Positions 4,807-49,737 of a DNA stretch of 64,000 bases are shown piece by piece. The translations under genes were made by a program, and so were the position numbers. The notes beneath the pieces were generated by a model. It was given only the letters and a program-made list of their open reading frames with translations, did not search any database and was not told the origin of the DNA. Position 1 is the stretch's first letter. Every line of letters begins with the position of its first letter. Source of the DNA: Clostridia bacterium (GTDB lineage Bacteria > Bacillota > Clostridia > Monoglobales > Monoglobaceae); NCBI GenBank assembly GCA_017546145.1, contig JAFYXN010000025.1, positions 1-64,000 of the forward strand. Direction: 5' to 3'.

Positions 4807-5003
4807 TAATACACCCTGCGATGTTCGTAGATGCGGATCAATGTAAAACCAACATTTTTTGAAAGGGAATTCATCTCCGATAGGCGGCGCACATGCCTCC
4901 CGCGGTTTCCGCGGCCAGTGGACTTGTAATGTCTTCGGGACTTATCCCACCTGCCAAGCAGGTTTTTACTTTATCCCGTATACGGCATAGGCGGGGTTTA
5001 TTT
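4807..5003 (+). ncRNA. ssrS: Probable 6S RNA
   Basis: About 197 nt. The 5' part carries CCCTGCGATGTTCG, matching the conserved 6S start (TCTGAGATGTTCG in E. coli). It pairs with the 3' end: ACCCTGC at 4812-4818 with GGCGGGGT near 4990-4997. Between the arms lies a long irregular helix with a central GC-rich hairpin near 4890-4912, as expected for a DNA-mimicking 6S fold. 6S RNA binds sigma-A RNA polymerase holoenzyme and lowers transcription in stationary phase. It was identified by motif and overall architecture, not by a covariance model. The region is non-coding and preceded by a sigma-A promoter. Confidence 0.66.
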
Positions 5004-6667: not shown

Positions 6668-6770
6668 AGCAAAGTAGGAAGCAATGCGTTAAGTGAAGGA
6701 CGGACGGGAAGTTGCCGTCTTTACGAAAAGCCGTATACGGCTTGCGGTATTGTTTCCGCATTCCGTTGCT
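6668..6770 (+). promoter_or_regulatory. Tetrahydrofolate (THF) riboswitch
   Basis: The sequence matches the published THF-riboswitch pattern: GTAG, GCGTTAAGTG, GGGAAGTTG, ACGAA, GCGGT and GCATTCCG occur in the known order. The helices form exactly. P1 is AGCAA (6668-6672) with TTGCT (6766-6770). P2 is GGAAGCAAT with ATTGTTTCC, nine pairs. P3 is AAGGACGG with CCGTCTTT. P4 is AAGCCG with CGGCTT. The class senses tetrahydrofolate and usually represses folate uptake or synthesis genes. Here it precedes folT and folC, as expected. Confidence 0.92.
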
Positions 6771-7399: not shown

Positions 7400-8678
7400 C
7401 AACAACTTCGCACAGTACGCCAACAGCTTTCAGGCAATAGCAAAGCTGCGTCTTGAAAGCATTCGCCGGCTACTCCACCACCTTGACAACCCCCAAAACG
7501 ATTTGAAGTTTATTCACGTCGCGGGCACAAACGGCAAAGGCTCGGTCTGCAGCTTTCTGCAAAACATTTTTTCGGACGCAGGCTTTAAAACGGGCAAGTA
7601 TACCTCGCCCAATCTGATAAAGGTTTCAGAACGCATCTCAATTGACGGCAAGCTGATTTCCGGCGAAGAGCTTGACACCCTGCTTGCCTTGGTGCAAAAA
7701 AGCGCCGAAGCCGTCAAAGCCGAGCAAGGCGAGCTTCCGACTCAGTTTGAAATATGGACTGCCGCGGCATTTTGTTACTTCAAGCAAAAAAAGTGCGACA
7801 TTGTCATTCTTGAAACAGGGCTTGGCGGCACTCGTGACGCAACAAATATTATTCCGCCGCCACTTGCCTCGGTTATAACACGCCTTGATCTTGACCATAC
7901 CGAATATCTGGGAAGCACTCTTGCAGAAATTGCAACCGAAAAAGCCGGTATAATCAAAACACCGCTTTCTGATGCAGATACCGGTCTTACAATAACCGCA
8001 CCACAATCCGACGCAGCACTGTCGGTACTTGAAAGCGTATGCCGTGAAAGGCGCAACAAACTTATTGTGGCAGATGCTCCTCACATCACAGACCAACGAG
8101 ACTTTCATGAGATATTCAGCTATAAACAGCTGAGCGACCTTGAATGCGGAATATGCGGCTTCTACCAGCCCGAAAATGCGGCTCTTGCTGTAGAAACTGC
8201 ACTTAACCTTGGAATTGACAAAAAACATATTGTGTCCGGTCTGAAAAAAGCCACCAACCCTGCCCGATTTGAAATAATCCAAACCGACCCTGTTGTAATA
8301 TATGATGGTGCCCACAACAAAAACGGAATTGACGCATTGATACAAAGTCTGACCCGATACTTCCCCGATTGGAACGGTGCAACCTTTATAACAGCATTTA
8401 TGGGGGACAAAGACATCGAAGGCTCTCTGCGCGAGTTGAAAACCTCCGGTCTGTTAGAAAATTCCGGGCTTTTTGCTGTAAAGGTAAAAAACAACCCTCG
8501 CGCGGCAGAAACCGAAAAAATCTGCAGTATTGCACACCATCTGGGAATTTCAGCAAAACCCTTCAGCGCTCTTAAAGACGCATATCTGACAGCACTGAAA
8601 AAAAATAATCCAATCATTTTGTGCGGCTCACTTTATCTCTATAAGGATTTTGATGAAGTCTTAAACCAAATATGCTAA
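7392..8678 (+). CDS. folC: Folylpolyglutamate synthase / dihydrofolate synthase
   Basis: 428 residues, normal length. The ATP-binding loop is HVAGTNGKGSVCSFL (about 41-55). The Mur-ligase-like central domain holds LDLDHTEYLG. The C-terminal domain has DGAHNKNG (about 298-305). FolC adds glutamates to folates and often makes dihydrofolate from dihydropteroate. The start overlaps folT by 8 bp, so the two are translationally coupled and both under the THF riboswitch. Uptake plus polyglutamylation retains imported folate in the cell. The stop is followed at once by copy 1 of the 3'-end repeat and a terminator. Confidence 0.93.
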   Translation: MNNNNFAQYANSFQAIAKLRLESIRRLLHHLDNPQNDLKFIHVAGTNGKGSVCSFLQNIFSDAGFKTGKYTSPNLIKVSERISIDGKLISGEELDTLLALVQKSAEAVKAEQGELPTQFEIWTAAAFCYFKQKKCDIVILETGLGGTRDATNIIPPPLASVITRLDLDHTEYLGSTLAEIATEKAGIIKTPLSDADTGLTITAPQSDAALSVLESVCRERRNKLIVADAPHITDQRDFHEIFSYKQLSDLECGICGFYQPENAALAVETALNLGIDKKHIVSGLKKATNPARFEIIQTDPVVIYDGAHNKNGIDALIQSLTRYFPDWNGATFITAFMGDKDIEGSLRELKTSGLLENSGLFAVKVKNNPRAAETEKICSIAHHLGISAKPFSALKDAYLTALKKNNPIILCGSLYLYKDFDEVLNQIC

Positions 8679-8769
8679 AGTAAGGGGAGGTTAAAATAGT
8701 CCAGACCGCAAAAAGACGGGAAAATCAAAGAATATTCCTTGTGAATTAGCAAAAAAAGCTATTATAATG
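8679..8769 (+). repeat. 3'-end repeat element, copy 1 (after folC)
   Basis: About 90 nt beginning directly after the folC stop, with the shared core TTAAAATAGTCCAGACCG, then AAAATCAAAG, TTCCTTGTGAATTAGC and a TATTATAATG end. Highly similar copies follow the stop codons at 46646 (copy 2) and 49738 (copy 3), always in the sense orientation and always leading into a terminator hairpin. A TTGTGA/TATAAT pair with an 18-bp spacer near the 3' end could be a weak promoter. Function unknown. Confidence 0.85.
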
Positions 8770-8770
8770 T

Positions 8771-8804
8771 AAGGCTGTTTAAAAACATAGTTTTTAAACA
8801 GCCT
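8771..8804. terminator. Intrinsic terminator between folC and the subtilase gene
   Basis: A 15-bp perfect stem, AGGCTGTTTAAAAAC and its complement around ATA, followed on the plus strand by CTTTTGTT. It lies between converging genes and can stop folC transcription; its A/T-rich flanks may also serve the minus-strand gene. The same stem occurs after copy 2 of the repeat. Confidence 0.88.
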
Positions 8805-25041: not shown

Positions 25042-25062
25042 TACCGTCACCTTCATTTACTT

Positions 25063-25137
25063 GGGACGATGCTCACATCGTCCCCTACGCATTAATTGAA
25101 CAACAAATATTGTAGGGGGCGATGCCCACATCGCCCC
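25063..25137. repeat. Two GC-rich palindromes between dnaJ and dnaK
   Basis: Unit 1 is GGGACGATG/CATCGTCCC (25063-25084). Unit 2 is GGGGGCGATG/CATCGCCCC (about 25115-25136), flanked by GTAG and CCTC. In unit 1 the base change is compensated on the other arm (GGGACG/CGTCCC), so the stem is kept. The gap has no gene. Confidence 0.85.
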
Positions 25138-25151
25138 TCAACTTTCAAAAT

Positions 25152-46518: not shown

Positions 46519-46551
46519 AGGCTGTTTAAAAACAATGTTTTTAAACAGCCT
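46519..46551 (-). terminator. Terminator after repeat copy 2
   Basis: AGGCTGTTTAAAAAC and its complement around a 3-nt loop, almost identical to the hairpin after folC. It ends the two-TM/ImmA unit and faces the nif3 gene. Confidence 0.87.
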
Positions 46552-46645: not shown

Positions 46646-47161
46646 TTATATGCTATCTAAACCATTATGCTCTTTTTCTAAATTTTCTGCTTCTATATTT
46701 GCACGTTTGTTTTCTAAATCGTTCTTTTGAATAGAGCGGACTATTTGAGTAATATATTGCTCATCATCCTTTGGAAAAACATACTCTGTTATAGTTTTAA
46801 TTAATCCTATTATAAGAACAGAAAAAGATGTATAAGCAGAAATCAACCCAACAAGCTGCTCTAAAGAATTTATTGAGTTAAAGAAAGCCTTACCCGTAGC
46901 AACTATCATAACAATAACAATTGCCACAAGCACAGCCAGCAAAACCTCAACAATCTTTTTCCGATAGGTACTGACAAAATCTATTTTCCTATCATACGCA
47001 TTTACGTAAAATGACAACAATTTCGTTATATGAATGTCCCTTTCTTGTTGCTGTTTTGTTTGCCACTTGTCCTTAAGAGAAGTTTCGCTATCTGCTTGTT
47101 TAATAGGTACGTTTGAAAATATTCTGTTTAAAATATCAAATTCTTGTTTTTTGTTATTCAT
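46646..47161 (-). CDS. Unknown two-TM protein linked to an ImmA/IrrE protease
   Basis: 171 residues from the ATG at 47159-47161. The cytoplasmic N-terminal part (1-65) is charged. Two membrane helices lie at about 68-90 (VEVLLAVLVAIVIVMIVATG) and 104-125 (LISAYTSFSVLIIGLIKTI). The C-terminal tail is a charged coil (about 130-171). No family was recognised. The start lies immediately after the ImmA stop, so the pair is co-transcribed and probably works together. Codon use is more A/T-rich than in the flanking housekeeping genes. A membrane effector controlled by proteolysis is one possibility; this is inference. Confidence 0.72.
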   Translation of the reverse strand: MNNKKQEFDILNRIFSNVPIKQADSETSLKDKWQTKQQQERDIHITKLLSFYVNAYDRKIDFVSTYRKKIVEVLLAVLVAIVIVMIVATGKAFFNSINSLEQLVGLISAYTSFSVLIIGLIKTITEYVFPKDDEQYITQIVRSIQKNDLENKRANIEAENLEKEHNGLDSI

Positions 47162-49251: not shown

Positions 49252-49461
49252 ATGCGTCTTAGAGAATTGAGAAAAGCTTCAGGAATTACCCAGTTAAAGC
49301 TTGCTCTTGACCTGAATACAAATCAAAATACAATCAGCCGATATGAAACAGGCTCTCACGAAGCGGATTACGAAATGCTTATTAAAATTGCAGATTACTT
49401 TGAGGTTTCAATTGATTATCTTTTGGAACGCACCGATAATCCTACATTTTTAAAGGACTAA
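49252..49461 (+). CDS. Small XRE-family transcriptional regulator
   Basis: 69 residues from the ATG at 49252 (AAGAGGTGA upstream). A single HTH_3 domain: MRLRELRKASGITQLKLALD, NTNQNTISRYETGSHEADYE, MLIKIADYFEVSIDYLLERT. It lacks any dimerisation or sensor domain. It is probably an autorepressor through the paired palindromes upstream. No partner gene is adjacent on the same strand; the closest candidate partner is the ImmA-type protease beyond smpB. Confidence 0.87.
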   Translation: MRLRELRKASGITQLKLALDLNTNQNTISRYETGSHEADYEMLIKIADYFEVSIDYLLERTDNPTFLKD

Positions 49462-49485
49462 AAAAGATTGTGTTTAAACACCCTT

Positions 49486-49615
49486 CCATTAGGGGATAGT
49501 TAAAATTGATTCAGAACACACAAACCGAGCCAAAGTCAGGACTTTGGGTTACCCGAAGGTGTACTTGTGTACATCGAGAGGCGAGGTTTGTGCGTATCAA
49601 AAAGATTATTAAAAC
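49486..49615 (+). ncRNA. Structured RNA candidate downstream of the XRE gene
   Basis: After a stretch related to the 3'-end repeat (GGGGATAGTTAAAATTGATT), positions 49506-49600 fold into a closed multi-branch structure. TTGAT pairs with ATCAA, and CACAAACC (49519-49526) pairs with GGTTTGTG (49585-49592). An extra GCC/GGC is reached across a GA/GA internal loop. Inside are three hairpins: AAAGT/ACTTT, ACC-CGAA-GGT and GTAC-TTGT-GTAC. No family was recognised. Confidence 0.5.
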
Positions 49616-49645
49616 AGAAAAATCGCATTGTTATGCGATTTTTCT
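49616..49645. terminator. Bidirectional terminator between the XRE and kinase genes
   Basis: AGAAAAATCGCAT and its complement around TGTT. It serves the XRE-side RNA on the plus strand and repeat copy 3 on the minus strand. Confidence 0.9.
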
Positions 49646-49648
49646 ACA

Positions 49649-49737
49649 TTTATAATAGCTTTTTTTATTGCTAATTCACAAGGAATATTCTTTGATTTTC
49701 CATCTTTTTGCGGTCTGGACTATTTTAATCCCTTTAT
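49649..49737 (-). repeat. 3'-end repeat element, copy 3 (after the kinase gene)
   Basis: It begins at the kinase stop codon. It shares ATTAAAATAGTCCAGACCGC, AAAATCAAAGAATATTCC and TTGTGAATTAGC with copies 1 and 2. It has one base fewer in the GGG run, which rules out a conserved reading frame. The terminator after it differs from those of copies 1 and 2. Confidence 0.87.

Follow-up and report, generated by a model that had tools for sequence, protein, structure and literature searches.

A folded, non-coding repeat family positioned behind stop codons in gut Clostridia

Why should the same short sequence recur, on the sense strand, directly behind the stop codons of unrelated genes? The question is raised by a 64,000-nucleotide stretch of a Clostridia bacterium contig (JAFYXN010000025.1, positions 1 to 64,000; hereafter the window), in which a preliminary description had noted three near-identical copies of an element placed in this way. 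Sequence comparison and BLAST bear out the three copies (against copy 1, copy 2 matches at E = 2.7e-49 and copy 3 at E = 1.6e-28) and add further copies in the same genome, and each window copy does lie on the sense strand just 3′ of a stop codon, with gaps of 5, 7 and 4 nt. Here we describe the element, its distribution and its placement, and weigh the explanations that may account for them.

The element and its copies in the window

The copies and the hairpins attached to them are the following.

8684..8768, plus strand: copy 1, a shortened member corresponding to the 5′ part of the element; its GGGG begins 5 nt past the folC stop codon (8676-8678)
8772..8804, plus strand: terminator-like hairpin attached to copy 1, with 15 pairs and a T-rich tail; the same hairpin core recurs in the genome
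46554..46638, minus strand: copy 2, a shortened member corresponding to the 5′ part of the element; its GGGG lies 7 nt past the stop codon (46646-46648) of a 182-aa gene
46519..46551, minus strand: terminator-like hairpin attached to copy 2; the hairpin core recurs in the genome
49492..49733, minus strand: copy 3, full-length at 242 bp, with P1, a long P2 hairpin and a branched P3 (from BLAST, the ends and a covariance model score of 97.8 bits)
49461..49491, minus strand: degenerate remnant of the flanking hairpin 3′ of copy 3 (from the sequence; the BLAST alignment, 49461-49735, reaches here)

The element had been described as about 85 nt long, but this length covers the 5′ part only: copy 3, which begins with AGGG rather than GGGG 4 nt past the stop codon of the WalK-like kinase gene (49738), continues to 242 bp. 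Copies 1 and 2 are without the 3′ half, their first ~85 nt being joined near 'TAATG' to the terminator-like hairpin GGCTGTTTAAAAACATAGTTTTTAAACAGCC, and the window holds one full member and two internally deleted members. Copies 1 and 2 do share one hairpin, as had been noted, whereas the 'different hairpin' attributed to copy 3 is the element's own internal P2. We agree that no protein is conserved.

The full copy has sharp complementary ends (GGGGAT..ATCCCC), copy 3 terminating in the complementary end ACTATCCCC. P1 pairs both ends (GGGGAU..AAAAAUAG with CUAUUUUU..AUCCCC), P2 (GCAAAAAG/CUUUUUGC) encloses either a tiny loop (the form of about 150 bp) or a long hairpin (the form of about 240 bp), and P3 (CACAAACC/GGUUUGUG) is branched, with two hairpins within; members of this non-coding, palindromic and dispersed family range from about 110 to 260 bp. 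From copy to copy the first base covaries with the last, and complementarity stops exactly at the element edge, so that we regard the ends as sharp. The element matches no family model in Rfam 15. The covariance-model check that had been proposed found strong base-pair covariation: among 28 diverse members, trimmed inside P2, a 52-pair structure has 91.4% of its cells paired and 31 of the 52 pairs changed on both sides, with 142 double-change cells as against 44.8 ± 5.5 in shuffles and at most 28 in slid structures. The structure was drawn by hand from the same sequences, a bias that favours the percentage paired more than the double changes.

A TTGTGA/TATAAT promoter near the end of the element, suggested earlier as the start of a separate short transcript, is rejected. 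Copy 1 matches at 10 of 12 positions, yet about 0.9 such matches are expected by chance in the region; other members read TTTTGA, TTTCGA or TGGGAA at the position of TTGTGA. The TATAAT that copies 1 and 2 carry without mismatch sits at the deletion junction. The pair is thus at chance level and is not conserved among members.

Among the copies examined, none is autonomous with an internal gene. One (L061) is enlarged by about 240 nt in P3, which is too little room for a transposase; this enlargement, in a P3 hairpin, recurs in genome G006 (L061, L063, L064 and L066), and as these loci lie at contig ends the enlarged version is probably multi-copy. At L109, short tandem pieces of the 5′ module of the element (AGTGTAGGACGCATAATG) lie directly downstream of the element. 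The window also carries a 6S RNA (4810-5001), a THF riboswitch upstream of the folC region (6668-6770) and a Gut-1 RNA (RF01706; 48074-48529) that immediately follows the tmRNA gene and shares its strand.

Distribution, spread and placement

In the genome to which the window belongs, BLAST recovered eight copies of the 5′ part and a covariance model (R1) gave ten matches, one of them between purH and purD. Matches were found in 14 of 60 relatives by DNA search and in 29 of 100 relatives with R1, at up to 30 per genome, and 299 other genomes drawn evenly across the phylum gave none (R1, stricter filters). In named genomes, a pattern scan matched at least 118 stretches; among the matches listed, the carriers are metagenome-assembled genomes (MAGs) named Clostridia, Oscillospiraceae, Ruminococcus or Eubacteriales, mostly from herbivore gut where the title gives a source. 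The same pattern is absent from viral contigs and BLAST with the full copy found no match in plasmids or phages, and carriage on any of the three was set aside.

Comparison of orthologous sites shows that most copies are lineage-specific, which suggests that the family is mobile. The element behind folC occurs only in G000, that is, in one of nine congeners (for one of these the sequence stopped where its contig did), and that behind the WalK-like kinase gene occurs in G000 and G002 (two of nine) as different subtypes, the other seven being without it. Within one genus the copy number runs from 1 to 21, and some genomes carry head-to-tail arrays of two or three elements, for example behind one gene in G096 (L273-L276). 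As most sites are lineage-specific, the family appears to spread. The preliminary description had taken placement at gene 3′ ends to argue against a mobile repeat; this premise fails in the face of the lineage-specific copies, the range in copy number and the tandem arrays.

The placement itself holds genome-wide and across genera. Tabulation of distance and strand for 108 copies (with simple ORF calls as gene calls) gave a sense upstream gene in 93, the end of which mostly lay no more than 17 bp from the element. Among 60 fetched copies from nine genomes, the upstream gene was sense for 42 and antisense for 11, and 39 of the 42 sense copies lay between -16 and +17 bp from the stop codon; a second set, drawn from other MAGs, had 51 sense and 4 antisense, the model start there often being internal to the element so that distances are reliable for full matches only. 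Only one of the 108 copies lies in a divergent gap, and in tandem gene gaps sense copies outnumber antisense copies by 35 to 11 (p = 5e-4, a nominal value as the copies are related). The placement is not strict, contrary to what had been stated, given that about 14% of copies are antisense, mostly still with the 3′ end toward a hairpin.

This orientation toward a strong hairpin is a second rule, and it covers most antisense cases. The 3′ flank carries a hairpin with a median of -17.6 kcal/mol, with 75% at or below -8, as compared with -6.1 kcal/mol and 35% for the 5′ flank. In the antisense-tandem class, seven of eight copies have their 3′ end toward a strong hairpin (L068 is probably a mis-called sense copy). 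The hairpin faced by about 75% of 3′ ends is perhaps itself part of the mobile unit. One such flanking hairpin (TGTTTAAAAA..TTTTTAAACA) occurs eight times in G000, five times in G002, seven times in G006 and once each in G004 and G008, with none in G001, G003, G005 and G007; its occurrence tracks expansion of the element, and its arms are closer to the P1 arms of the neighbouring element than to those of others (p = 6e-4). On the basis of this resemblance and tracking, the hairpin may be a relative of the element or part of the mobile unit. Target stems were looked for outside the element ends, where there is no complementarity.

Selection and possible use by the host

Whether the fold matters as RNA or as DNA can be approached through stem mismatches. 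Selection on a transcript should favour G·U. In the element, the ratio of G·U to A·C mismatches is 21:36 and 90:104, whereas it is 27:0 in 19 tRNAs from the same loci. The pairing of most copies is therefore not visibly maintained at the RNA level, which fits neutral decay of most copies or a fold that acts as DNA, and we hold an RNA-level function to be likely just for some fixed copies.

Such a fixed copy lies between purH, which encodes AICAR formyltransferase, and purD. Every one of the nine genomes in the genus carries the element in this gap (G004 and G008 with two copies in tandem), and the sister genera tested have no element between the two genes. Because the P1 registers at this site differ by sub-clade, we used single-sequence folds and a comparison with four-fold sites. 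Each of the eight orthologs tested folds at z of -3.9 to -6.0, and within sub-clades the gap is 83-100% identical, as against 46-75% for the four-fold sites of purH (gap versus four-fold sites: G001/G003, 1.00 versus 0.75; G001/G007, 0.94 versus 0.71; G001/G005, 0.89 versus 0.50; G001/G006, 0.85 versus 0.50; G000/G002, 0.83 versus 0.59; G004/G008, 0.98 versus 0.67). Given that the gap is more conserved than the four-fold sites, this copy shows purifying selection, and some copies at least thus probably serve the cell. Numbers of G·U and A·C mismatches in the purH-purD copy alone are small. Between sub-clades, identity falls to 0.61-0.70 and the P1 arms differ wholesale, and it is therefore possible that the copy or its P1 arms were replaced at least once. 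A function for the element, which the preliminary description had placed in the 3′ UTR, accordingly finds support at this one locus, where the copy is present in all nine congeners and, within sub-clades, conserved above four-fold sites; the stems of most copies, which have no G·U preference, give no sign of selection on RNA.

In the gap between dnaK and dnaJ, four of nine genomes hold the element, and the other five have a different hairpin or inverted repeat instead; the gap appears to need a structure whose source is exchangeable. The window's own dnaK-dnaJ gap (25057-25151) carries an inverted repeat, GGGGCGATGTGGGCATCGCCCC and GGGACGATGTGAGCATCGTCCC, that is also found 3′ of the element in the corresponding gap of G005 and is possibly a second mobile palindrome family.

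We consider it probable, with some reserve, that the element is a REP/YPAL/EFAR-like mobile, folded, non-coding repeat of gut Clostridia that places a stable structure behind stop codons, and that some of its copies are used by the host. New copies would land in the narrow interval that separates a stop codon from a hairpin terminator, or beside another palindrome. They would be co-transcribed, and their stable fold would come to lie in the immediate wake of the terminating ribosome. Such a fold could protect the mRNA, insulate or modulate re-initiation at the gene that follows, or keep the terminator away from the ribosome. The ribosome represses terminators that lie a few bp past a stop codon, and full terminator strength is attained at distances above about 30 bp (PMC4824070); 110-260 bp of stable structure between stop codon and terminator may act on both re-initiation and terminator repression. 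Many copies in convergent gaps are perhaps near-neutral passengers. More tentatively, the mobile family may spread a ready-made, stop-adjacent structure from gene to gene, and the host may have adopted its operon copies (purH-purD and dnaK-dnaJ) as interchangeable modules for insulation or stability; if so, operons owe some of their post-transcriptional tuning to a transposable palindrome.

A purely selfish DNA palindrome, with a fold that acts as single-stranded DNA or as a cruciform for movement into terminator hairpins and with no host function, would owe its 3′-end placement to target choice and to the removal of harmful insertions. The equal G·U and A·C mismatches, the antisense copies that likewise have their 3′ end toward a hairpin, the lineage-specific spread and the flanking hairpins that track element number all agree with this explanation. 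However, the conservation of the purH-purD copy well above four-fold sites and its retention in nine of nine genomes speak against it, and we regard it as rather doubtful. A family of structured 3′-UTR RNAs that does not move (a processed small RNA or protein-binding site, the idea first put forward for this element), inherited vertically with frequent loss, would account for the covariation, the sense placement and the one conserved copy, but is improbable given the near-identical copies after unrelated genes of one genome, the same genes without the element in congeners, and the lack of a conserved promoter and of a G·U excess.

The least probable explanation, to which we give very little credence, is a REP-like repeat mobilised by a REP-associated tyrosine transposase (RAYT; long Y1_Tnp, 245-274 aa): a search of 32 genomes turned up the long Y1 class in element-bearing ones only (G000, G002, G006, G037, G046 and G058), but the element-rich G096 (98% complete) has no Y1 match and, at the RAYT loci fetched, no element lies near any long Y1 gene, so that the association expected of REP and RAYT is missing and RAYT is rejected as mobiliser. 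The long Y1 genes are instead flanked by repeats of their own; these RAYT-like genes, at L313 (2460-3230) and L314-L321, with AGAACCGTCCCC or related G/C-rich units beside them, are a separate REP-like system in these genomes. Integron attC sites, considered on account of the sense placement after stop codons, were also set aside, as the ends of the element do not fit what we take to be the attC core sites.

The preferred reading, that of a mobile folded repeat with some copies used by the host, describes a repeat family widespread in gut Clostridia with an unusually tight landing rule, namely a stop codon directly upstream and the 3′ end toward a hairpin. The purH-purD gap amounts to a natural experiment, with a copy under selection that every one of the nine congeners has and that the sister genera tested lack, through which the recruitment of mobile palindromes as mRNA structures after stop codons becomes testable.

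Comparison with known systems

The family has not been filed before and is a new one of the REP/YPAL/EFAR-like kind, with a distinctive branched fold and one copy under selection. With repeats of the YPAL and EFAR type it shares dispersed, non-coding, folded and lineage-specific copies. EFAR repeats reportedly insert into stem-loops, and a duplicated target would be expected at the ends of a YPAL-type insertion and retained target stems at those of an EFAR-type one; the present element is without target-stem remnants outside its ends.

YPAL/RU-2 of Yersinia (about 168 bp; PMC2229807) is likewise a small mobile palindrome, its targets span or adjoin dyad symmetries, and it may affect the stability of upstream transcripts (PMC2229807). 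We saw no sequence relation, and the sharp complementary ends, the branched P3, the adjacency to stop codons and the occurrence in Clostridia belong to the present element. EFAR/Efa-1 of Enterococcus faecalis is similar in being about 160-170 bp, folded, modular and preferentially at gene 3′ ends (PMC1590033, PMC2267715), but Efa-1 is a pair of adjacent stem-loops, whereas in the present element a single stem closes off a branched domain. REP, Efa and Ype repeats all concentrate at gene 3′ ends (PMC1590033). The REP/BIME sequences of enterobacteria are extragenic palindromes at gene 3′ ends and between cistrons and can stabilise mRNA; REPs measure 30-40 nt and are linked to RAYT transposases, whereas the present element is longer and adjoins no RAYT gene at the loci fetched.

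Finally, the element resembles ribosome termination structures in setting a stable mRNA structure directly 3′ of a stop codon (PMC7518266). In a synthetic operon, structure at this position governs re-initiation, and such structures occur commonly among bacteria (PMC7518266). Ribosome termination structures are a positional feature that any sequence may have, whereas here the structure is supplied by one seemingly mobile sequence family.
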